IMG/VR virus record: IMGVR_UViG_3300027741_000206
Span: 1 to 29,056 of that record
DNA from: a virus
Length of the DNA: 29,056 bases
Direction: 5' to 3' (one strand)
The translations under genes were made by a program, and so were the position numbers. Shown here in pieces: positions 10,684 to 28,074 of the stretch. Position 1 is the first letter of the stretch. Every line of letters begins with the position of its first letter. The notes under the pieces were generated by a model, which saw only the letters and a program-made list of their open reading frames with translations, was not told the origin of the DNA and did no database searches.

Positions 10684-10706
10684 TAAACCCCACTAAGAGG
10701 GTACTT

Positions 10707-10738
10707 AAAAGAGGAGTAGAAATACTCCTCTTTTTTTT
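10707..10738 (+). terminator. Rho-independent terminator after gene 23
   Basis: A perfect 8-bp stem (10711-10718 GAGGAGTA with 10723-10730 TACTCCTC) closes a GAAA tetraloop. It can extend by four A-T pairs and ends in a run of eight T. This is a strong terminator for the capsid transcript, placed just ahead of the next late promoter. Confidence 0.95.
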
Positions 10739-10741
10739 CTT

Positions 10742-10749
10742 TATAAATA
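10742..10749 (+). promoter_or_regulatory. Late promoter immediately ahead of the second tube-like gene (TATAAATA)
   Basis: Exact late octamer, separated from the downstream ATG at 10755 by only 5 bases. With T4 spacing (octamer at -13 to -6) the first transcribed base would be the A of that ATG. It sits at the tail of the gene 23 terminator, so it restarts transcription just after the stop. Confidence 0.8.
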
Positions 10750-10754
10750 CCAAT

Positions 10755-11787: not shown

Positions 11788-11814
11788 CATAGAATGTTAA
11801 ATAATCATTTTTTA
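11783..11814 (+). terminator. AT-rich hairpin with T tract after uvsY
   Basis: TTTAACAT (11783-11790) and ATGTTAAA (11794-11801) form an 8-bp stem with a 3-base loop, overlapping the uvsY stop codon. TAATCA and a T run follow. The stem is low in G-C, so termination may be partial; it could separate early uvsY mRNA from the endonuclease gene. Confidence 0.5.
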
Positions 11815-11820
11815 TAAATA
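11813..11820 (+). promoter_or_regulatory. Late promoter of the HNH endonuclease gene (TATAAATA)
   Basis: Exact late octamer. The predicted start near 11826 leaves a 13-base leader with ATAGGAG before the ATG at 11839. A private late promoter is a common feature of free-standing homing endonuclease genes in T4. Confidence 0.8.
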
Positions 11821-11838
11821 AAGACATAGGAGAAAAAT

Positions 11839-12393: not shown

Positions 12394-13849
12394 TATTATA
12401 TTACATAAATTGAATGAAGCATTTATAAAATTTGAATGTGAAAAAGCATTAGCTCAAGAACTTTCTATATATTTTGAATTTTATGTTCCAGGTTTTCAAT
12501 TTACTCCTGCATACAAATCAAGAGTATGGGATGGTAAAATTAGGCTTGCAGACCTAAGAAACTTTACCATCTATCACGGTCTTGTTCCATACATTGAAAC
12601 ATTTTGTAAAGAACGTGACTACAAATTAGAGATTGACCCTGATGTTAATTGTACAGAAAATTATTCTGTTGTTGAGGCAGAACAATTCATATCGACATTA
12701 AATATTCCTCTTGAAGTAAGAGACTATCAATTAAAGTCATTTGTACATGCGGTTCGTAATAGACGAATCTTATTGTTGTCACCTACTGCATCAGGTAAAT
12801 CACTAATCATTTATTTGATACTTCGTTATCTACAAGTTAATTGTAAAAGAGGTTTGTTGATTGTGCCTACAACATCTTTAGTTGAACAAATGTATAAAGA
12901 CTTTAGTGACTATGGTTATGATTCAGACCAATACTGCCATCGCCAATATTCTGGTAAAGAGAAACACACAAACAAGTTTCTAACGATTACTACATGGCAA
13001 TCAATTTACAAAAACGACAAAGACTACTTTGAGCAATTTGACTTTGTTCTTGGTGATGAGGCACATCAATTCAAAGCCAAATCACTGACGACTATTCTAT
13101 CTGGTTGTTCTAATGCCAAGTATCGTATTGGTACAACAGGTACACTTGATGGTACACAGACACATAAACTTGTACTTGAAGGTTTGTTTGGTCCTGTTTA
13201 CAGAGCAACATCTACCGCAGAGTTAATGGAAAAAGGTCAACTTGCTGCATTTAAGATTAAGTGTTTGATTCTGAAATACGATGATGCAATATGTAAACAA
13301 GCTAAGTCATGGGACTATAATACAGAACTTGAATACATAGTTAAAAACAAACAAAGAAATGAATTCATTAAAAACTTGGTGTTGTCTTTAAAAGGTAATA
13401 CACTTGTCTTGTTTCAATTCGTTGAGAAACACGGCAAAGATTTACATGCACTGATTAAAGAGAATACCAAAAATAGACATGTGTTCTTTGTATACGGCGA
13501 CACAGATGTTGATGTTAGAGAATCGGTTCGTGCAATTACTGAAAAAGAAAAAGATGCAATTATTGTGGCATCTTATGGCACTTTTAGTACTGGCGTTAAC
13601 ATTCGCAACCTACACAACATCATCTTTGCTTCTCCCTCTAAGTCTCGTATTCGGAACTTGCAGTCAATCGGTAGGGGTTTAAGATTAGGTGATAACAAGG
13701 AAGAGGCCGTTCTCTTTGACATAGCGGATGATTTTAGAATAGGCAAATATACCAATTACACGTTGCATCATTTCGTGGAACGTGTTAAAATATACGATGA
13801 TGAAAAATTCAATTACAAATTCTACAATATCAACCTCAAACATGAATGA
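12386..13849 (+). CDS. uvsW: UvsW helicase
   Basis: SF2 RNA/DNA helicase that unwinds R-loops and branched intermediates and drives the switch from origin- to recombination-dependent replication in T4. The protein has 487 residues. Motifs: YKSRVWDGKIRL (N-terminal substrate domain, T4 FRYGNWDGRIRL), Walker A SPTASGKS with Lys138, GDEAH (Asp224-His227), GTTGTLDG, VASYGTFSTGVNIRNLHN and QSIGRGLR. It ends with DDEKFNYKFYNINL, closely matching T4. An in-frame upstream start at 12335 lies inside the endonuclease gene; I choose the ATG at 12386 because conserved sequence begins there. It has no good ribosome site of its own and overlaps the endonuclease stop by 8 bases, so translation is probably coupled. 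Confidence 0.95.
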   Translation: MSDIILHKLNEAFIKFECEKALAQELSIYFEFYVPGFQFTPAYKSRVWDGKIRLADLRNFTIYHGLVPYIETFCKERDYKLEIDPDVNCTENYSVVEAEQFISTLNIPLEVRDYQLKSFVHAVRNRRILLLSPTASGKSLIIYLILRYLQVNCKRGLLIVPTTSLVEQMYKDFSDYGYDSDQYCHRQYSGKEKHTNKFLTITTWQSIYKNDKDYFEQFDFVLGDEAHQFKAKSLTTILSGCSNAKYRIGTTGTLDGTQTHKLVLEGLFGPVYRATSTAELMEKGQLAAFKIKCLILKYDDAICKQAKSWDYNTELEYIVKNKQRNEFIKNLVLSLKGNTLVLFQFVEKHGKDLHALIKENTKNRHVFFVYGDTDVDVRESVRAITEKEKDAIIVASYGTFSTGVNIRNLHNIIFASPSKSRIRNLQSIGRGLRLGDNKEEAVLFDIADDFRIGKYTNYTLHHFVERVKIYDDEKFNYKFYNINLKHE

Positions 13850-14291
13850 TTTAATCCAAGGCGTTAAGATAGTCCGTTTGCAAAGCGGAGAAGACATTAT
13901 TGCAAGTATAATAGAAGATGATGAATCAGATATGGTTATGTTGAATAATCCTATGCATCTTATCTTTAAAAGAACTTCTCAAGGTTCAATGATGGTTATG
14001 TTACCGTGGTTACCTATTGAGTTGATTAAAGATAATACAGCTACGATTTATTCCTCTGACATTCTTACCATGGTAGACCCAAAAGATGCCCTCATTGAGT
14101 ATTACGGTAATATGATTAATACGGAACAGTTGAAGAATCTGAGTGATGACACCCTCGTTAATAACTTGAAAGAAGCTATTCACGATAATGAGGATGATGA
14201 GTTTGATATTGAGGAAGAGAACGAAGAACGCCTAACTAAAGAAGAATCAATCGAAGTCTTCAATCGGAAGAGAAGCAACAGGTTACATTAA
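13842..14291 (+). CDS. Sm-like (LSm-type) small protein
   Basis: The protein has 149 residues with the ATG at 13842 overlapping the uvsW stop by 8 bases; a longer in-frame start upstream lies within uvsW and is not conserved-looking. The N-terminal 80 residues look like an Sm-fold beta barrel: a short helix then GVKIVRLQSGEDIIASIIED (strands 1-2, with the G-x-D/E-x-x-x-x pattern), DMVMLNNPMHLIF, MMVMLPWLP and ATIYSSDILTMVDP. The C-terminal 60 residues are helical and highly acidic (DNEDDEFDIEEENEER). An Sm-like protein of apparent cyanophage origin has been described structurally, and this may be its relative. Role unknown; RNA binding is possible by analogy with Hfq but not shown. Confidence 0.62.
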   Translation: MNDLIQGVKIVRLQSGEDIIASIIEDDESDMVMLNNPMHLIFKRTSQGSMMVMLPWLPIELIKDNTATIYSSDILTMVDPKDALIEYYGNMINTEQLKNLSDDTLVNNLKEAIHDNEDDEFDIEEENEERLTKEESIEVFNRKRSNRLH

Positions 14292-20306: not shown

Positions 20307-20320
20307 AACAAAAGTATTAC

Positions 20321-20338
20321 TGTTGCTTTCATGCAACA
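20321..20338 (+). repeat. Inverted repeat next to the VWA-gene promoter
   Basis: TGTTGC (20321-20326) and GCAACA (20333-20338), with a 6-base centre, followed directly by GGGGCTTGAC, whose last bases form the -35. No T tract follows, so it is not a standard terminator. A near copy lies at 22784-22801 before the AAA+ gene; it could be an operator. Confidence 0.6.
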
Positions 20339-20343
20339 GGGGC

Positions 20344-20371
20344 TTGACTTCCTCATTGGTTCTGTTACAAT
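20344..20371 (+). promoter_or_regulatory. Extended -10 promoter for the VWA/HEXXH gene
   Basis: TTGACT (20344-20349), 16-base spacer ending TGT, TACAAT (20366-20371). The start near 20378 gives a short leader with ATAGGAA before the ATG at 20400. Confidence 0.75.
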
Positions 20372-20399
20372 AGTCTTATAAATCGAGATAGGAAAATCA

Positions 20400-22781: not shown

Positions 22782-22783
22782 CC

Positions 22784-22801
22784 TGTTGTTTCTACGCAAC
22801 A
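22784..22801 (+). repeat. Inverted repeat next to the AAA+ gene promoter
   Basis: TGTTG (22784-22788) and CAACA (22797-22801) with an 8-base centre, just after the stop of the VWA gene, followed by CA and GGGGCTTGAC. It matches the element at 20321 in sequence and position relative to the -35. Confidence 0.6.
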
Positions 22802-22808
22802 CAGGGGC

Positions 22809-22836
22809 TTGACAAATCTGCCCACTGTGTTATACT
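22809..22836 (+). promoter_or_regulatory. Extended -10 promoter for the CobS-like AAA+ gene
   Basis: TTGACA (22809-22814), 16-base spacer ending TGT, TATACT (22831-22836). The -10 block TGTTATACT is identical to that of the promoter at 24074. AAAAGGAA precedes the ATG at 22869. Confidence 0.8.
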
Positions 22837-22868
22837 ATGTGTATCTTGTGAATTAAAAGGAATTTGTA

Positions 22869-24038: not shown

Positions 24039-24045
24039 TTAGGGC

Positions 24046-24092
24046 AATAGTGCGTTCTTTACCTTAAAAAGTATTGACGCACTATTTTTTTT
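24046..24092 (+). terminator. Terminator of the AAA+ gene, overlapping the next promoter
   Basis: AATAGTGCGT (24046-24055) and ACGCACTATT (24077-24086) pair perfectly over 10 bp, followed by six further T. The loop is 21 bases and can pair internally (CTTT with AAAAG). The 3' arm contains most of the TTGACG -35 element of the following promoter. Confidence 0.85.
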
Positions 24093-24102
24093 ATGTTATA
24101 CT
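24074..24102 (+). promoter_or_regulatory. Extended -10 promoter for the small winged-helix gene
   Basis: TTGACG (24074-24079), 17-base spacer ending TGT, TATACT (24097-24102). Transcription would start near 24109, so the RNA begins with the hairpin at 24111. Its T-rich spacer is the T tract of the upstream terminator. Confidence 0.78.
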
Positions 24103-24110
24103 TACACATC

Positions 24111-24147
24111 ATTTGAGGGATTGAGTCGCCTCTCAAATAATTTTTTT
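24111..24147 (+). terminator. Terminator-like hairpin at the very 5' end of a leader
   Basis: A 9-bp stem (24111-24119 with 24130-24138, one G-T pair) with a 10-base loop, then AA and seven T. It starts within about 2 bases of the predicted transcription start. It could attenuate transcription, release a tiny RNA of about 39 bases, or simply protect the mRNA 5' end. Confidence 0.6.
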
Positions 24148-24175
24148 AGCGATTCGTTTTTATCATGGAGTCTAT

Positions 24176-24518: not shown

Positions 24519-25334
24519 ATGGAAATACAAGTTAAAATTGATGATTTGAAAAAACATAAACTGTTTGTTGCCACTCCTATGTACGGTGGAATGAATCACG
24601 GTTTATATATGAAGTCTTGCCTAGACCTACAGACAACAATGCATCGCTATGGAATCGAAGTTAAGTTTTCATTCCTGTTTAATGAATCACTAATCACAAG
24701 AGCTCGCAATTATTTGGTTGACGAGTTTCTACGCACAGATTACACACACTTACTTTTTATTGATTCAGATATTCACTTCAATGCACAAGACGTAATTGCT
24801 TTGTTGGCACTCGACAAAGATGTTGCTGGTGGTCCTTATCCCAAGAAGTCTATGAATTGGAGTAACATTGCTCATGCAGCAAGAAAACATCCAGACCTAG
24901 AACCAAAAGAGTTAGAGAACTTAGTTGGTGAGTATGTGTTCAATGTTGTAAAAGGAACATCCACATTCTCTGTTACCGAACCACTTGAAGTCATGGAAAT
25001 TGGTACAGGTTTTATGATGGTGAAACGTGAAGTGTTTGACAAGATGAAAGAAGAATATCCTTCTATTCGTTACAAACCAGACCACGTTGGACAAATGAAC
25101 TTTGACGGCTCACGATACATTCATGCTTACTTTGATACAGTAATTGACACCAAAGAATCAATCGTTGGTGGTGGTTCTGAACGATATCTTTCCGAAGATT
25201 ATATGTTCTGTCAAATGTGGCGTAAAATGGGTGGCACAATTTTCTTATGCCCTTGGATGAAAACACAACACATTGGCACTTACGCATTTACAGGTAACAT
25301 GCCTGCTGTTGCGAATTATACTGGTAAATTGTAA
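24519..25334 (+). CDS. GT-A-type glycosyltransferase-like protein
   Basis: The protein has 271 residues. It opens with LFVATPMYGGMNHGLYMKS, and SLITRARNYLVDEFLRTDYTH leads into LLFIDSDIHF, where the D-S-D triplet (a D-x-D sugar-nucleotide/metal motif) follows a hydrophobic strand. Later are GTGFMMVKREVFD and the acceptor-side SEDYMFCQMWRKMGGTIFLCPW ending in H-I-G. This is the layout of family 2-like enzymes common in marine T4-like phages, usually annotated only as glycosyltransferases. The acceptor may be DNA, a virion protein or a host glycan; nothing in the sequence decides. No clear promoter is seen; the ribosome site is a weak AAGG 9 bases upstream of the ATG. Confidence 0.8.
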   Translation: MEIQVKIDDLKKHKLFVATPMYGGMNHGLYMKSCLDLQTTMHRYGIEVKFSFLFNESLITRARNYLVDEFLRTDYTHLLFIDSDIHFNAQDVIALLALDKDVAGGPYPKKSMNWSNIAHAARKHPDLEPKELENLVGEYVFNVVKGTSTFSVTEPLEVMEIGTGFMMVKREVFDKMKEEYPSIRYKPDHVGQMNFDGSRYIHAYFDTVIDTKESIVGGGSERYLSEDYMFCQMWRKMGGTIFLCPWMKTQHIGTYAFTGNMPAVANYTGKL

Positions 25335-25339
25335 AGAAT

Positions 25340-25443
25340 AAGGGGAGTAAAATCTCCTTAGTCTGTTTCTAAAACAGACAACCAAAACTAATAATTTTGG
25401 TGTGTTAGTATGGTGTGTAAAAAACACCGTGGGTAAAAACCAC
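25340..25443 (+). ncRNA. Run of five consecutive small hairpins in a leader
   Basis: Five stem-loops follow each other with almost no spacing. HP1 is 25342-25359 (GGAG/CTCC plus G-T pairs, loop TAAAAT). HP2 is 25361-25379 (8-bp GTCTGTTT/AAACAGAC, loop CTA). HP3 is 25382-25400 (6-bp CCAAAA/TTTTGG, loop CTAATAA). HP4 is 25412-25428 (5-bp GGTGT/ACACC, loop GTAAAAA). HP5 is 25429-25443 (4-bp GTGG/CCAC, loop GTAAAAA). The stems differ in sequence while the loops stay A-rich with a TAA core, which argues for conserved structure. It occupies nearly all of the 133-base gap before the next gene and is probably its 5' leader. Confidence 0.6.
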
Positions 25444-25467
25444 ATTAAATTTTATATAGGGAAAAAA

Positions 25468-26637
25468 ATGAAAAAAAATATGATTAAAGAAATTACCAAG
25501 AATGGGTCTTTCACAGAGGAAGATTTAGAAAATGTAAAGAGTCTTCTAAACATAGACGCTTATCCACAGTTCTATAAACTTTATGATGGAACAGAATATT
25601 CTTTGCCTGAAGGTATTGAATATGTTGACACTATTATAATTGATGCAAAAGCCTTGACAAGAGAAGGCACAATCGGTAGTTCACAACCTACCCGTGCCTC
25701 TGGTGGTAATCAAAAACGTGAAGAATTGGCAAGAGATATTTTTGAAACAGGATGGAAACTTTTTTGTAGCCCCATTTCTGTTATACAAAGAAACAACAAA
25801 ATTATCTTCCTCGATGGAAGAACAAAAGATAAAATTCTCCTAGAAGTAAAATATGGAAATCGAATTGTTCGTTTGTATAAATTTGTAGGCGAACATGAAA
25901 ATGATGTTGAGTTACAAGATGATGCAATTGAAGATTTTGGTTTAGAAGGTAATGAAGAACCTTATACTGCTGGTTATAATGTACAAGCAGACTTCTTTGA
26001 AGTTGGAAAGAAAAAAGTTGCCAGAGGAACTCTAGAGCCAAGTCAGAGTGCAATTCTTGCTTGGGTTAATAAACGAGCAAAAAGTTTTGCCAAACAAAAG
26101 CGTGACGATATTGCTTCAAGAATTTTTAATCACTACAGTAATACAAATGCTGGATTAGAAGTTGAATCTTGGACGCCAGAAGAAGCAGATGTTTGGATGA
26201 AAAAGAATAATTATATTTCAGTCGGACATGTAATGTATTTGGTTGTATCTGCTGAAGTTACTTCTAAGGCTTTATTTGCTGCTTCAAAACTTGCACAAGA
26301 AAATCCTGGTAAAGAAATTCGTGTTGTATTACACACTGGTTACTTGACTGGATGGGACAGACCAAAAACATATGTCAATAAGATTAAGAAATTCAAAAAT
26401 GAATGGTATCTTAAATTGTCACAAATAAGTTTTGGTTTCTTCAAAGGTACACAATTCACAGATTCACCAATCAAGTTGTATGGTGTTATGCCTGCAAACA
26501 TTGTTAACTTATGTGAAGATGATGGCAAATTAATTATCTTTGGTAAAAATGACCAGAAGATTGAAAACTTTAATCAATCTAGGACTTCAGCTAATCTTTC
26601 TCGTTACTTTGATGTTGAAGAATTAGAAGAAGTTTAA
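25468..26637 (+). CDS. Unknown protein with a possible ParB-like segment (389 aa)
   Basis: An in-frame GTG at 25402 lies inside the hairpin run; I choose the ATG at 25468, preceded by ATAGGGA. Residues about 90-140 (QKREELARDIFETGWKLF, then SPISVIQRNNKIIFLDGRTKDKIL) resemble the ParB/Srx fold, in which a P-x-x-V strand is followed by a D/N-G-R-T/H-R/K helix. The remaining 250 residues (ILAWVNKRAKSFAKQKRDDIA, VGHVMYLVVSAEVTSKALFAA, VVLHTGYLTGWDRPKTYVNKI) are not recognised. The ending is acidic (YFDVEELEEV). The composition is even and the frame intact. A nucleotide- or DNA-related role would suit a ParB-like domain and the nearby nucleotide and replication genes, but this is inference. Confidence 0.75.
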   Translation: MKKNMIKEITKNGSFTEEDLENVKSLLNIDAYPQFYKLYDGTEYSLPEGIEYVDTIIIDAKALTREGTIGSSQPTRASGGNQKREELARDIFETGWKLFCSPISVIQRNNKIIFLDGRTKDKILLEVKYGNRIVRLYKFVGEHENDVELQDDAIEDFGLEGNEEPYTAGYNVQADFFEVGKKKVARGTLEPSQSAILAWVNKRAKSFAKQKRDDIASRIFNHYSNTNAGLEVESWTPEEADVWMKKNNYISVGHVMYLVVSAEVTSKALFAASKLAQENPGKEIRVVLHTGYLTGWDRPKTYVNKIKKFKNEWYLKLSQISFGFFKGTQFTDSPIKLYGVMPANIVNLCEDDGKLIIFGKNDQKIENFNQSRTSANLSRYFDVEELEEV

Positions 26638-27708: not shown

Positions 27709-28074
27709 ATGGAACAGAGGCGTAATTTTCTCAAAGGTGCAGGCATCATTGGTGCCTTTGTTGTTGGTGCTGCTTCTTACAAACAAGTGAAAGAAATGGC
27801 TACTGAACATAAAGACATTAGTCATAAAGAAATGGCTACTGAACATAAAGACATTAGTCATCTTGCACCACCTATTAATGCAATAACTATTCAATTTACA
27901 GGAGCATATGGTGAGAAACCTAAAGCACCAGAACCAACTATGGGTCAACATACATTCTATGTCAATGGTTGGAATGAAGAAGTTACACACCGTGTTTCTA
28001 TGACTGTCGGTAAAGACAATCGTTTGTGGATGAAAATTGGAGATGAATGGCACAGAGTTGCTATTGAATCTTAA
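27709..28074 (+). CDS. Small exported or membrane-anchored protein with twin-arginine signal
   Basis: The protein has 121 residues. The N-terminus MEQRRNFLKGAGIIGAFVVG has the twin-arginine pattern (R-R-x-F-L-K with Arg4-Arg5) followed by a hydrophobic helix to about residue 24. Next is a perfect 12-residue tandem repeat (KEMATEHKDISH twice, about 28-51). The rest is a small beta-rich domain (AITIQFTGAYGEKP, HTFYVNGWNEEVTHRVSMTV, LWMKIGDEWHRV). Tat substrates are normally exported folded; here the segment could instead act as a membrane anchor. No family recognised. It is inserted between clamp and clamp-loader genes, 2 bases after the gene 45 stop and without a strong ribosome site. Confidence 0.75.
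   Translation: MEQRRNFLKGAGIIGAFVVGAASYKQVKEMATEHKDISHKEMATEHKDISHLAPPINAITIQFTGAYGEKPKAPEPTMGQHTFYVNGWNEEVTHRVSMTVGKDNRLWMKIGDEWHRVAIES
27790..27861 (+). repeat. Perfect 36-bp tandem duplication inside the twin-arginine gene
   Basis: Two identical 36-base copies, 27790-27825 and 27826-27861, starting AAAGAAATGG and ending TTAGTCAT. The length is a multiple of three, so the frame is kept and 12 residues are duplicated. Absence of any mismatch suggests a recent slippage or recombination event, or an assembly artefact. Confidence 0.97.

Follow-up and report, generated by a model that had tools for sequence, protein, structure and literature searches.

The window (the whole stretch of DNA analysed, 29,056 nt) is a 29-kb sequence record from a T4-like phage with genes for a sliding clamp, a clamp loader, and related functions. 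In it, a 133-nt leader separates a glycosyltransferase-like gene (phrog_1574, with a weak Anp1 match; 24519-25334, + strand) from the ATG, at 25468, of a gene for a predicted ParB/sulfiredoxin-fold protein of 389 aa (25468-26637, + strand). Five stem-loops (HP1-HP5) on the + (coding) strand occupy positions 25339-25443 of this leader. They are followed by the ribosome-binding site (GGGAAAAAA) and the AUG start codon (25468-25470), which together span 25459-25470 on the + strand. The mechanically called ORF starts at a GTG at 25402, which falls within the array. An overlapping 44-kb contig has the identical leader, as well as RegA and DNA polymerase genes.

Inspection of the window by eye also showed T4 late promoter-like sequences (TATAAATA) ahead of genes at 10684-10754 and 11788-11838, and sigma70-like TTGAC...TATACT/TACAAT sequences at 20307-20399, 22782-22868, and 24039-24175. 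Between the clamp and clamp-loader genes lies a 121-aa ORF (27709-28074) with no match in PHROG or Pfam. It starts with MEQRRNFLKGAGIIGAFVVGAASY, which looks like a predicted twin-arginine (Tat) export signal, and continues with a duplicated KEMATEHKDISH stretch.

HP1 (25339-25360, +) reads UAAGGGGA-[GUAAAA]-UCUCCUUA and has 8 bp, including one G-U pair. The earlier note on this DNA, made from its letters, gave the loop as TAAAAT. That reading shifts the stem pairing of the same site out of register; the full stem leaves a GUAAAA loop. The counterpart of HP1 in L003, a homologous leader described below, is AAGGGAA[GTAAAA]TTCCCTT, in which a G-C pair has become A-U by a double change and the G-U pair has become G-C. 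HP2 (25361-25379, +) reads GUCUGUU-[UCUAA]-AACAGAC and has 7-8 bp; it has 8 bp and a CUA loop if the last U-A pair closes. In L003 this hairpin has a GTAAAA loop (GTCTGTT[GTAAAA]GACAGGC). HP3 (25381-25401, +; ACCAAAA-[CUAAUAA]-UUUUGGU, 7 bp) has an identical stem in L003 and there the loop CUAAAAA. HP4 (25412-25428, +; GGUGU-[GUAAAAA]-ACACC, 5 bp) can be extended to 25409-25431 and is missing from the L003 leader in the leader comparison. HP5 (25429-25443, +; GUGG-[GUAAAAA]-CCAC, 4 bp) has an identical stem and the loop GUAAAAU in L003, and its loop in the window starts 35 nt 5' of the start codon. With full stems, the window loops are thus GUAAAA, (U)CUAA(AA), CUAAUAA, GUAAAAA, and GUAAAAA, from HP1 to HP5.

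Folding and shuffling confirmed that the five hairpins, which the earlier note had placed at 25340-25443, are real. The minimum free energy of the leader is -35.5 kcal/mol, compared with -18.8 +/- 3.1 in dinucleotide shuffles (z = -5.33; none of the 200 folded as low), and the ensemble probabilities of the five helices in a 200-nt context are about 0.66-0.99, with HP3 and HP5 the weakest. Three GUAAAA-loop hairpins were observed in the window leader, where 0.016 were expected from shuffles (0 of 3000). The + strand is favored because its fold z is stronger (-5.3 vs -3.4 on the - strand) and because the stems of HP1 and of HP2 in L003 contain G-U pairs, which become A-C mismatches on the opposite strand. 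Sequence inspection found no U tract after any of HP1-HP5, which rules out an intrinsic terminator, as the earlier note had held. A search of Rfam gave 0 matches for the window at the gathering threshold. Other intergenic hairpins in the window have different loops (UUCG, GAAA, and AUAAUA).

By sequence, the 389-aa downstream protein matched nothing in Pfam, PHROG, other protein family libraries, or the PDB. The AlphaFold2 model (mean pLDDT 79.7) gave Foldseek matches to ParB-N, KorB, PadC, Noc, and sulfiredoxin, with a probability of 1.00 for ParB-N, PadC, Noc, and sulfiredoxin. Whole-chain TM scores were low, so the match is at the domain level. The model also matches uncharacterised cyanophage ParB/sulfiredoxin proteins over nearly the full length. 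The predicted structure is thus of the ParB/sulfiredoxin type, and the earlier description of the downstream gene as ParB-like holds at the level of the fold. Proteins with the ParB fold are known chiefly for binding DNA or nucleotides. Searches of INPHARED phages gave no homologues for the window and L020 proteins, and only a chance match for L096. In Synechococcus phage S-MS29 (L270), a protein distantly related to the cyanophage ParB-like protein is encoded within a tRNA gene cluster, between tRNA-Ala and tRNA-Asn.

We gathered homologues of the downstream gene from IMG/VR. Six further leaders carry hairpins with GUAAAA loops about 20 nt apart, ahead of proteins 34-73% identical to the window protein (L003, 73%; L091, L092, and L231/L232, 37-39%; L065, 35%; L096, 34%). 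There are three GTAAAA-loop hairpins each in L003, L091, L092, and L231, two in L065, and one in L096. A common anatomy is seen in the leaders of the window/L002, L003, L065, L091, L092, and L231/L232 and is weaker in L096. Within the arrays, successive loops are spaced 16-29 nt apart (22-26 nt for the first interval). Between the last hairpin loop and the AUG there are 35-43 nt, or 54 nt in L096. L096 fits the motif poorly, with its one GUAAAA hairpin and a fold z of -0.9. GUAAAA at the ribosome-binding site is limited to one sub-branch, where an extra unpaired copy lies between the Shine-Dalgarno and the start codon (L091, L092, and L231; AGGGGUAAAACUAUG in L231).

The stems are unrelated both between phages and within one leader, for example AAGGGAA[GTAAAA]TTCCCTT, CAGAGG[GTAAAA]CCTCTG, and AACGGAGA[GTAAAA]TCTCCGTT. 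In an alignment of 14 distinct hairpins, which were picked for pairing, all six stem positions vary on both sides, and 91.7% of cells pair, compared with 47% after shuffling and no more than 55% after sliding. The unselected count of GTAAAA sites weighs more: in leaders, 18 of 22 sites form the loop of a stem with 4 bp or more, whereas outside the leaders 15 of 358 do so in four phage records (Fisher p = 2e-18). For the window, L003, L065, L091, L092, and L231, 0 of 3000 shuffles gave as many GTAAAA hairpins as are present. L091, L092, and L231 are closely related, and so are the window and L003; these leaders therefore do not represent seven independent events. In the tree, the array is present on both main branches of the family. 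The L089 leader (1988-2097) has no GUAAAA, and its two comparable loops read AUAACA and AUAAACA. In this single case, the motif may have changed in both loops together.

Not all homologues have the element. Short leaders without hairpins precede the gene in a close clade (L025, L035, L087, and L088; 46-51% identical to the window protein) and in a distant subfamily homologous by profile (L020, L023, and L027), and the ParB-like protein therefore does not need the array. The bare clade shares its upstream gene with the window, yet has no hairpins there. The much more distant ParB/Srx homologue of cyanophage MED4-213, taken to be M4QDH6 from the protein length and the phage, also has a leader without the array. 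An acidic tail (EEDEEEL-like) tends to end the proteins of array-bearing phages and DGIIN ends those of the bare clade, a single clade-level difference that proves nothing. The distribution is best read as an array ancestral in the main family and lost once; independent gain in separate lineages is possible. Hairpins with compensatory changes, which the earlier note had proposed to look for in homologous leaders, thus occur in six of them, across both main branches of the array-bearing family; one clade and one distant subfamily lack them together with the entire leader. These leaders support its suggestion of a structured RNA that presents repeated single-stranded A-rich sites to a protein, such as a translational operator. 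The array is a real, conserved RNA element with strong comparative support, and its loop motif is, provisionally, an apparently undescribed one. Literature searches, which had most subscription papers outside their scope, gave nothing relevant on GUAAAA hairpins in phages.

The upstream stop codon ends 4 nt before HP1 and in L092 is overlapped by the first hairpin. In L096, the ParB-like gene sits behind a gp46-like SbcC-type gene, not a glycosyltransferase gene, and the GTAAAA hairpin is kept. Because this copy retains the hairpin elsewhere in the genome, the element appears to belong to the ParB-like gene. The leader is the only such hairpin cluster in the 171 kb of phage G008. Among 38 viral contigs with a two-site GTAAAA pattern, true arrays occurred only ahead of the ParB-like family, in leaders already known. 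A loose three-loop pattern gave, among the matches listed for viral contigs, only repeat-type sequences such as GGTG[GTAAAA]CATC beyond the known leaders. In genome contigs, there was no relative by protein, and the DNA pattern gave only non-array or unrelated matches. The same pattern picked up tandem degenerate short repeats with GTAAAAC outside long ORFs in L337 (2140-2200 and 3900-3970), L341, and L373 (Photorhabdus), several of which can form small hairpins; we found no evidence that these are related to the array.

The site after the phrog_1574 gene is a variable insertion site (window 24519-26637, L004, L006, L020, L024, L025, L065, and others). Depending on the phage, the next gene encodes a ParB-like protein (of two subfamilies), a dATP/dGTP pyrophosphohydrolase, a nucleotide-kinase-like protein, or others.

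Several known systems share features with the array. The operator of gene 43 in T4 and RB69 consists of the ribosome-binding site and a hairpin some 40 nt ahead of the start codon, and gp43 reads the loop bases -UAAC-/-UAAA- in autogenous control (PMC3014915). It resembles the array in being a phage leader hairpin 5' of the ribosome-binding site with a conserved loop, and in its letters and distance. It differs in having one hairpin with a conserved top, whereas the array has several with free stems, and in the protein involved. The array is not a gp43-type operator, as it leads a ParB-like gene and not a DNA polymerase gene; GUAAAA hairpins are missing from the gp43 leaders of G001 and G008. 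In the autogenous operator of T4 gene 32, a structured nucleation site lies upstream and binding then spreads over the A+U-rich ribosome-binding site (PMC3014915). Upstream nucleation and spreading to the ribosome-binding site are similar to what we propose for the array, but the gene 32 operator consists of a pseudoknot and unstructured UUAA(A) repeats and is read by a different protein. The RegA operator, an unstructured AUG-containing site with 5' poly(A), was rejected, as the sites of the array are hairpin loops well upstream of the AUG.

CsrA binds a hairpin loop and the Shine-Dalgarno on glgC (PMC7652899). CsrA/RsmA targets and CsrB also repeat a loop motif on unrelated stems, and glgC combines a hairpin-loop site with a Shine-Dalgarno site, but the motif there is GGA rather than GUAAAA and the array has few sites. 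With GUAAAA loops instead of many GGA loops, and no terminator after it, the array does not match a CsrB-type sponge RNA. TIGR-Tas systems have stem-loop arrays and a ParB-like partner, TasParB (PMC12045711), so that the combination of a stem-loop array with a ParB-like gene, in phages, is shared. However, each of their units has a box C (CCA) and a box D (UG) that flank two spacers of 8-12 nt. The array, with loops of 3-8 nt spaced 16-29 nt apart, has no room for two such spacers, and its variable parts pair with each other. Six records (some of them fragments) gave no match to a Nop-domain Tas gene and no convincing IS110-type match. A TIGR-Tas array was thus rejected on the missing Nop protein and the different unit design. 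Orphan phage proteins with the ParB-CTPase fold have been surveyed (PMC12704722). They share the fold of the downstream protein, but we found no leader RNA element with them, and the distant MED4-213 relative has no array. Our verdict is that the array is a variant of a multi-site mRNA operator that matches no Rfam family and has a putative binder.

We propose that 25339-25443 is a cis-acting leader that controls translation as a multi-site operator, with the ParB-like product as its most likely reader; we consider this about an even call. GUAAAA and its variants would be offered several times over, at intervals of about 20 nt and on separate short stems, as docking points for an RNA-binding protein. 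Binding would probably begin on the hairpin loops and then reach the A-rich ribosome-binding site about 35-43 nt downstream, where the bound protein would block, or less likely help, translation. The most likely binder would be the ParB-like product itself, resulting in autoregulation. We infer loop, step, and binder from different observations. The loops are constant and the stems free, which points to recognition of the loop as the protein site. That translation is the controlled step is suggested by the place of the array in the leader, by its nearly fixed distance from the start codon, and by the further GUAAAA that one branch has at the ribosome-binding site; T4 gp43 and CsrA on glgC offer the parallels described above. 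The exclusive linkage of the array to one gene family favors the gene's own product as the binder, and it is this linkage that suggests RNA binding by the ParB-like product. Against this reading stand the homologues with bare leaders, the poor fit of L096 and L089 to the motif, the restriction of GUAAAA at the ribosome-binding site to one sub-branch, and the usual binding of DNA or nucleotides by ParB-fold proteins. Still more tentatively, and somewhat doubtfully, a ParB-fold phage protein may have become a sequence-specific binder of GUAAAA hairpin loops that controls, or works with, its own arrayed leader RNA.

The same operator could instead be read by another phage protein (RegA, gp43, or the Sm-like DUF6561) or by a host RNA-binding protein, which we consider rather unlikely. 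The motif is short and A-rich and resembles the sites of several RNA-binding proteins; three phage records with an array encode RegA, and two of these also gp43. However, a general regulator should have further targets with the same hairpins, and phage G008 has none. RegA and gp43 are unlikely because of their own leaders, which carry no GUAAAA hairpins in these phages, and because of their known sites, those of RegA being without clear structure (PMC3014915). The earlier note had suggested as partner an Sm-like protein at 13842. This DUF6561 protein (window 13797-14291) does model as Sm/LSm, with 3by7 (Sm/LSm-like) as the closest solved structure (target-normalised TM 0.8-0.9). Nothing ties it to the array, however: DUF6561 is present beside UvsW-like helicase genes in all six T4-like phage records searched, in two of which no ParB-like gene was found. 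Self-regulation by the downstream product, the other option raised then, fits the distribution better. It is unlikely that the array is a separate functional RNA cut from the transcript, such as a decoy, a sponge (compare CsrB, which titrates CsrA), or an RNA that forms a ribonucleoprotein with the ParB-like protein. CsrB likewise repeats an identical loop on stems that are unrelated (PMC7652899), and an array that begins directly past the upstream stop codon could be cut out, but the leader location, the near-constant distance of the last hairpin to the start codon, the missing terminator, and the mere 1-5 sites per array argue against this.

A little less probable still is a role of intercistronic hairpins in protecting or processing the upstream message, or in stopping ribosomes from reading through, with the loop irrelevant or chosen for stability. 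The closeness of HP1 to the upstream stop codon, and the overlap in L092, would fit this role. It does not need a conserved loop on free stems, however, and the hairpin is kept behind another gene in L096, is absent from the bare clade behind the same gene, and has a loop different from those of the other intergenic hairpins in the window. We regard as very unlikely an RNA-RNA contact in which GUAAAA loops pair with UUUUA(C), for instance in the anticodon loop of lysine tRNA, as proposed for the A-rich loop of HIV-1. UAAAA is complementary to, and can pair with, UUUUA of the UUU anticodon loop. Contact of an A-rich loop with tRNALys3 has been described (PMC7793103). Against this, the variants CUAAUAA, AUAACA, and AUUAAAA would pair less well, and no candidate partner gene was identified. 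Mimicry of an anticodon loop was dropped, as the loops are mostly of 6 nt rather than 7. Least credible of all is an artefact of chance or composition: the region is AT-rich and the stems are short, but shuffles did not reproduce the hairpins of the window or of five further leaders, and both the Fisher test and the recurrence in divergent phages speak against it.

A conserved RNA element was here found from raw sequence. If the binder is another protein, the leader would still be a clean bait for a new RNA-binding protein. The array turns RNA binding by a ParB-like phage protein into a simple, testable question. If the ParB-like protein does bind RNA, an RNA function would be added to a fold associated chiefly with DNA partitioning and nucleotide switching, and the constant loop on free stems would be a ready-made RNA tag.
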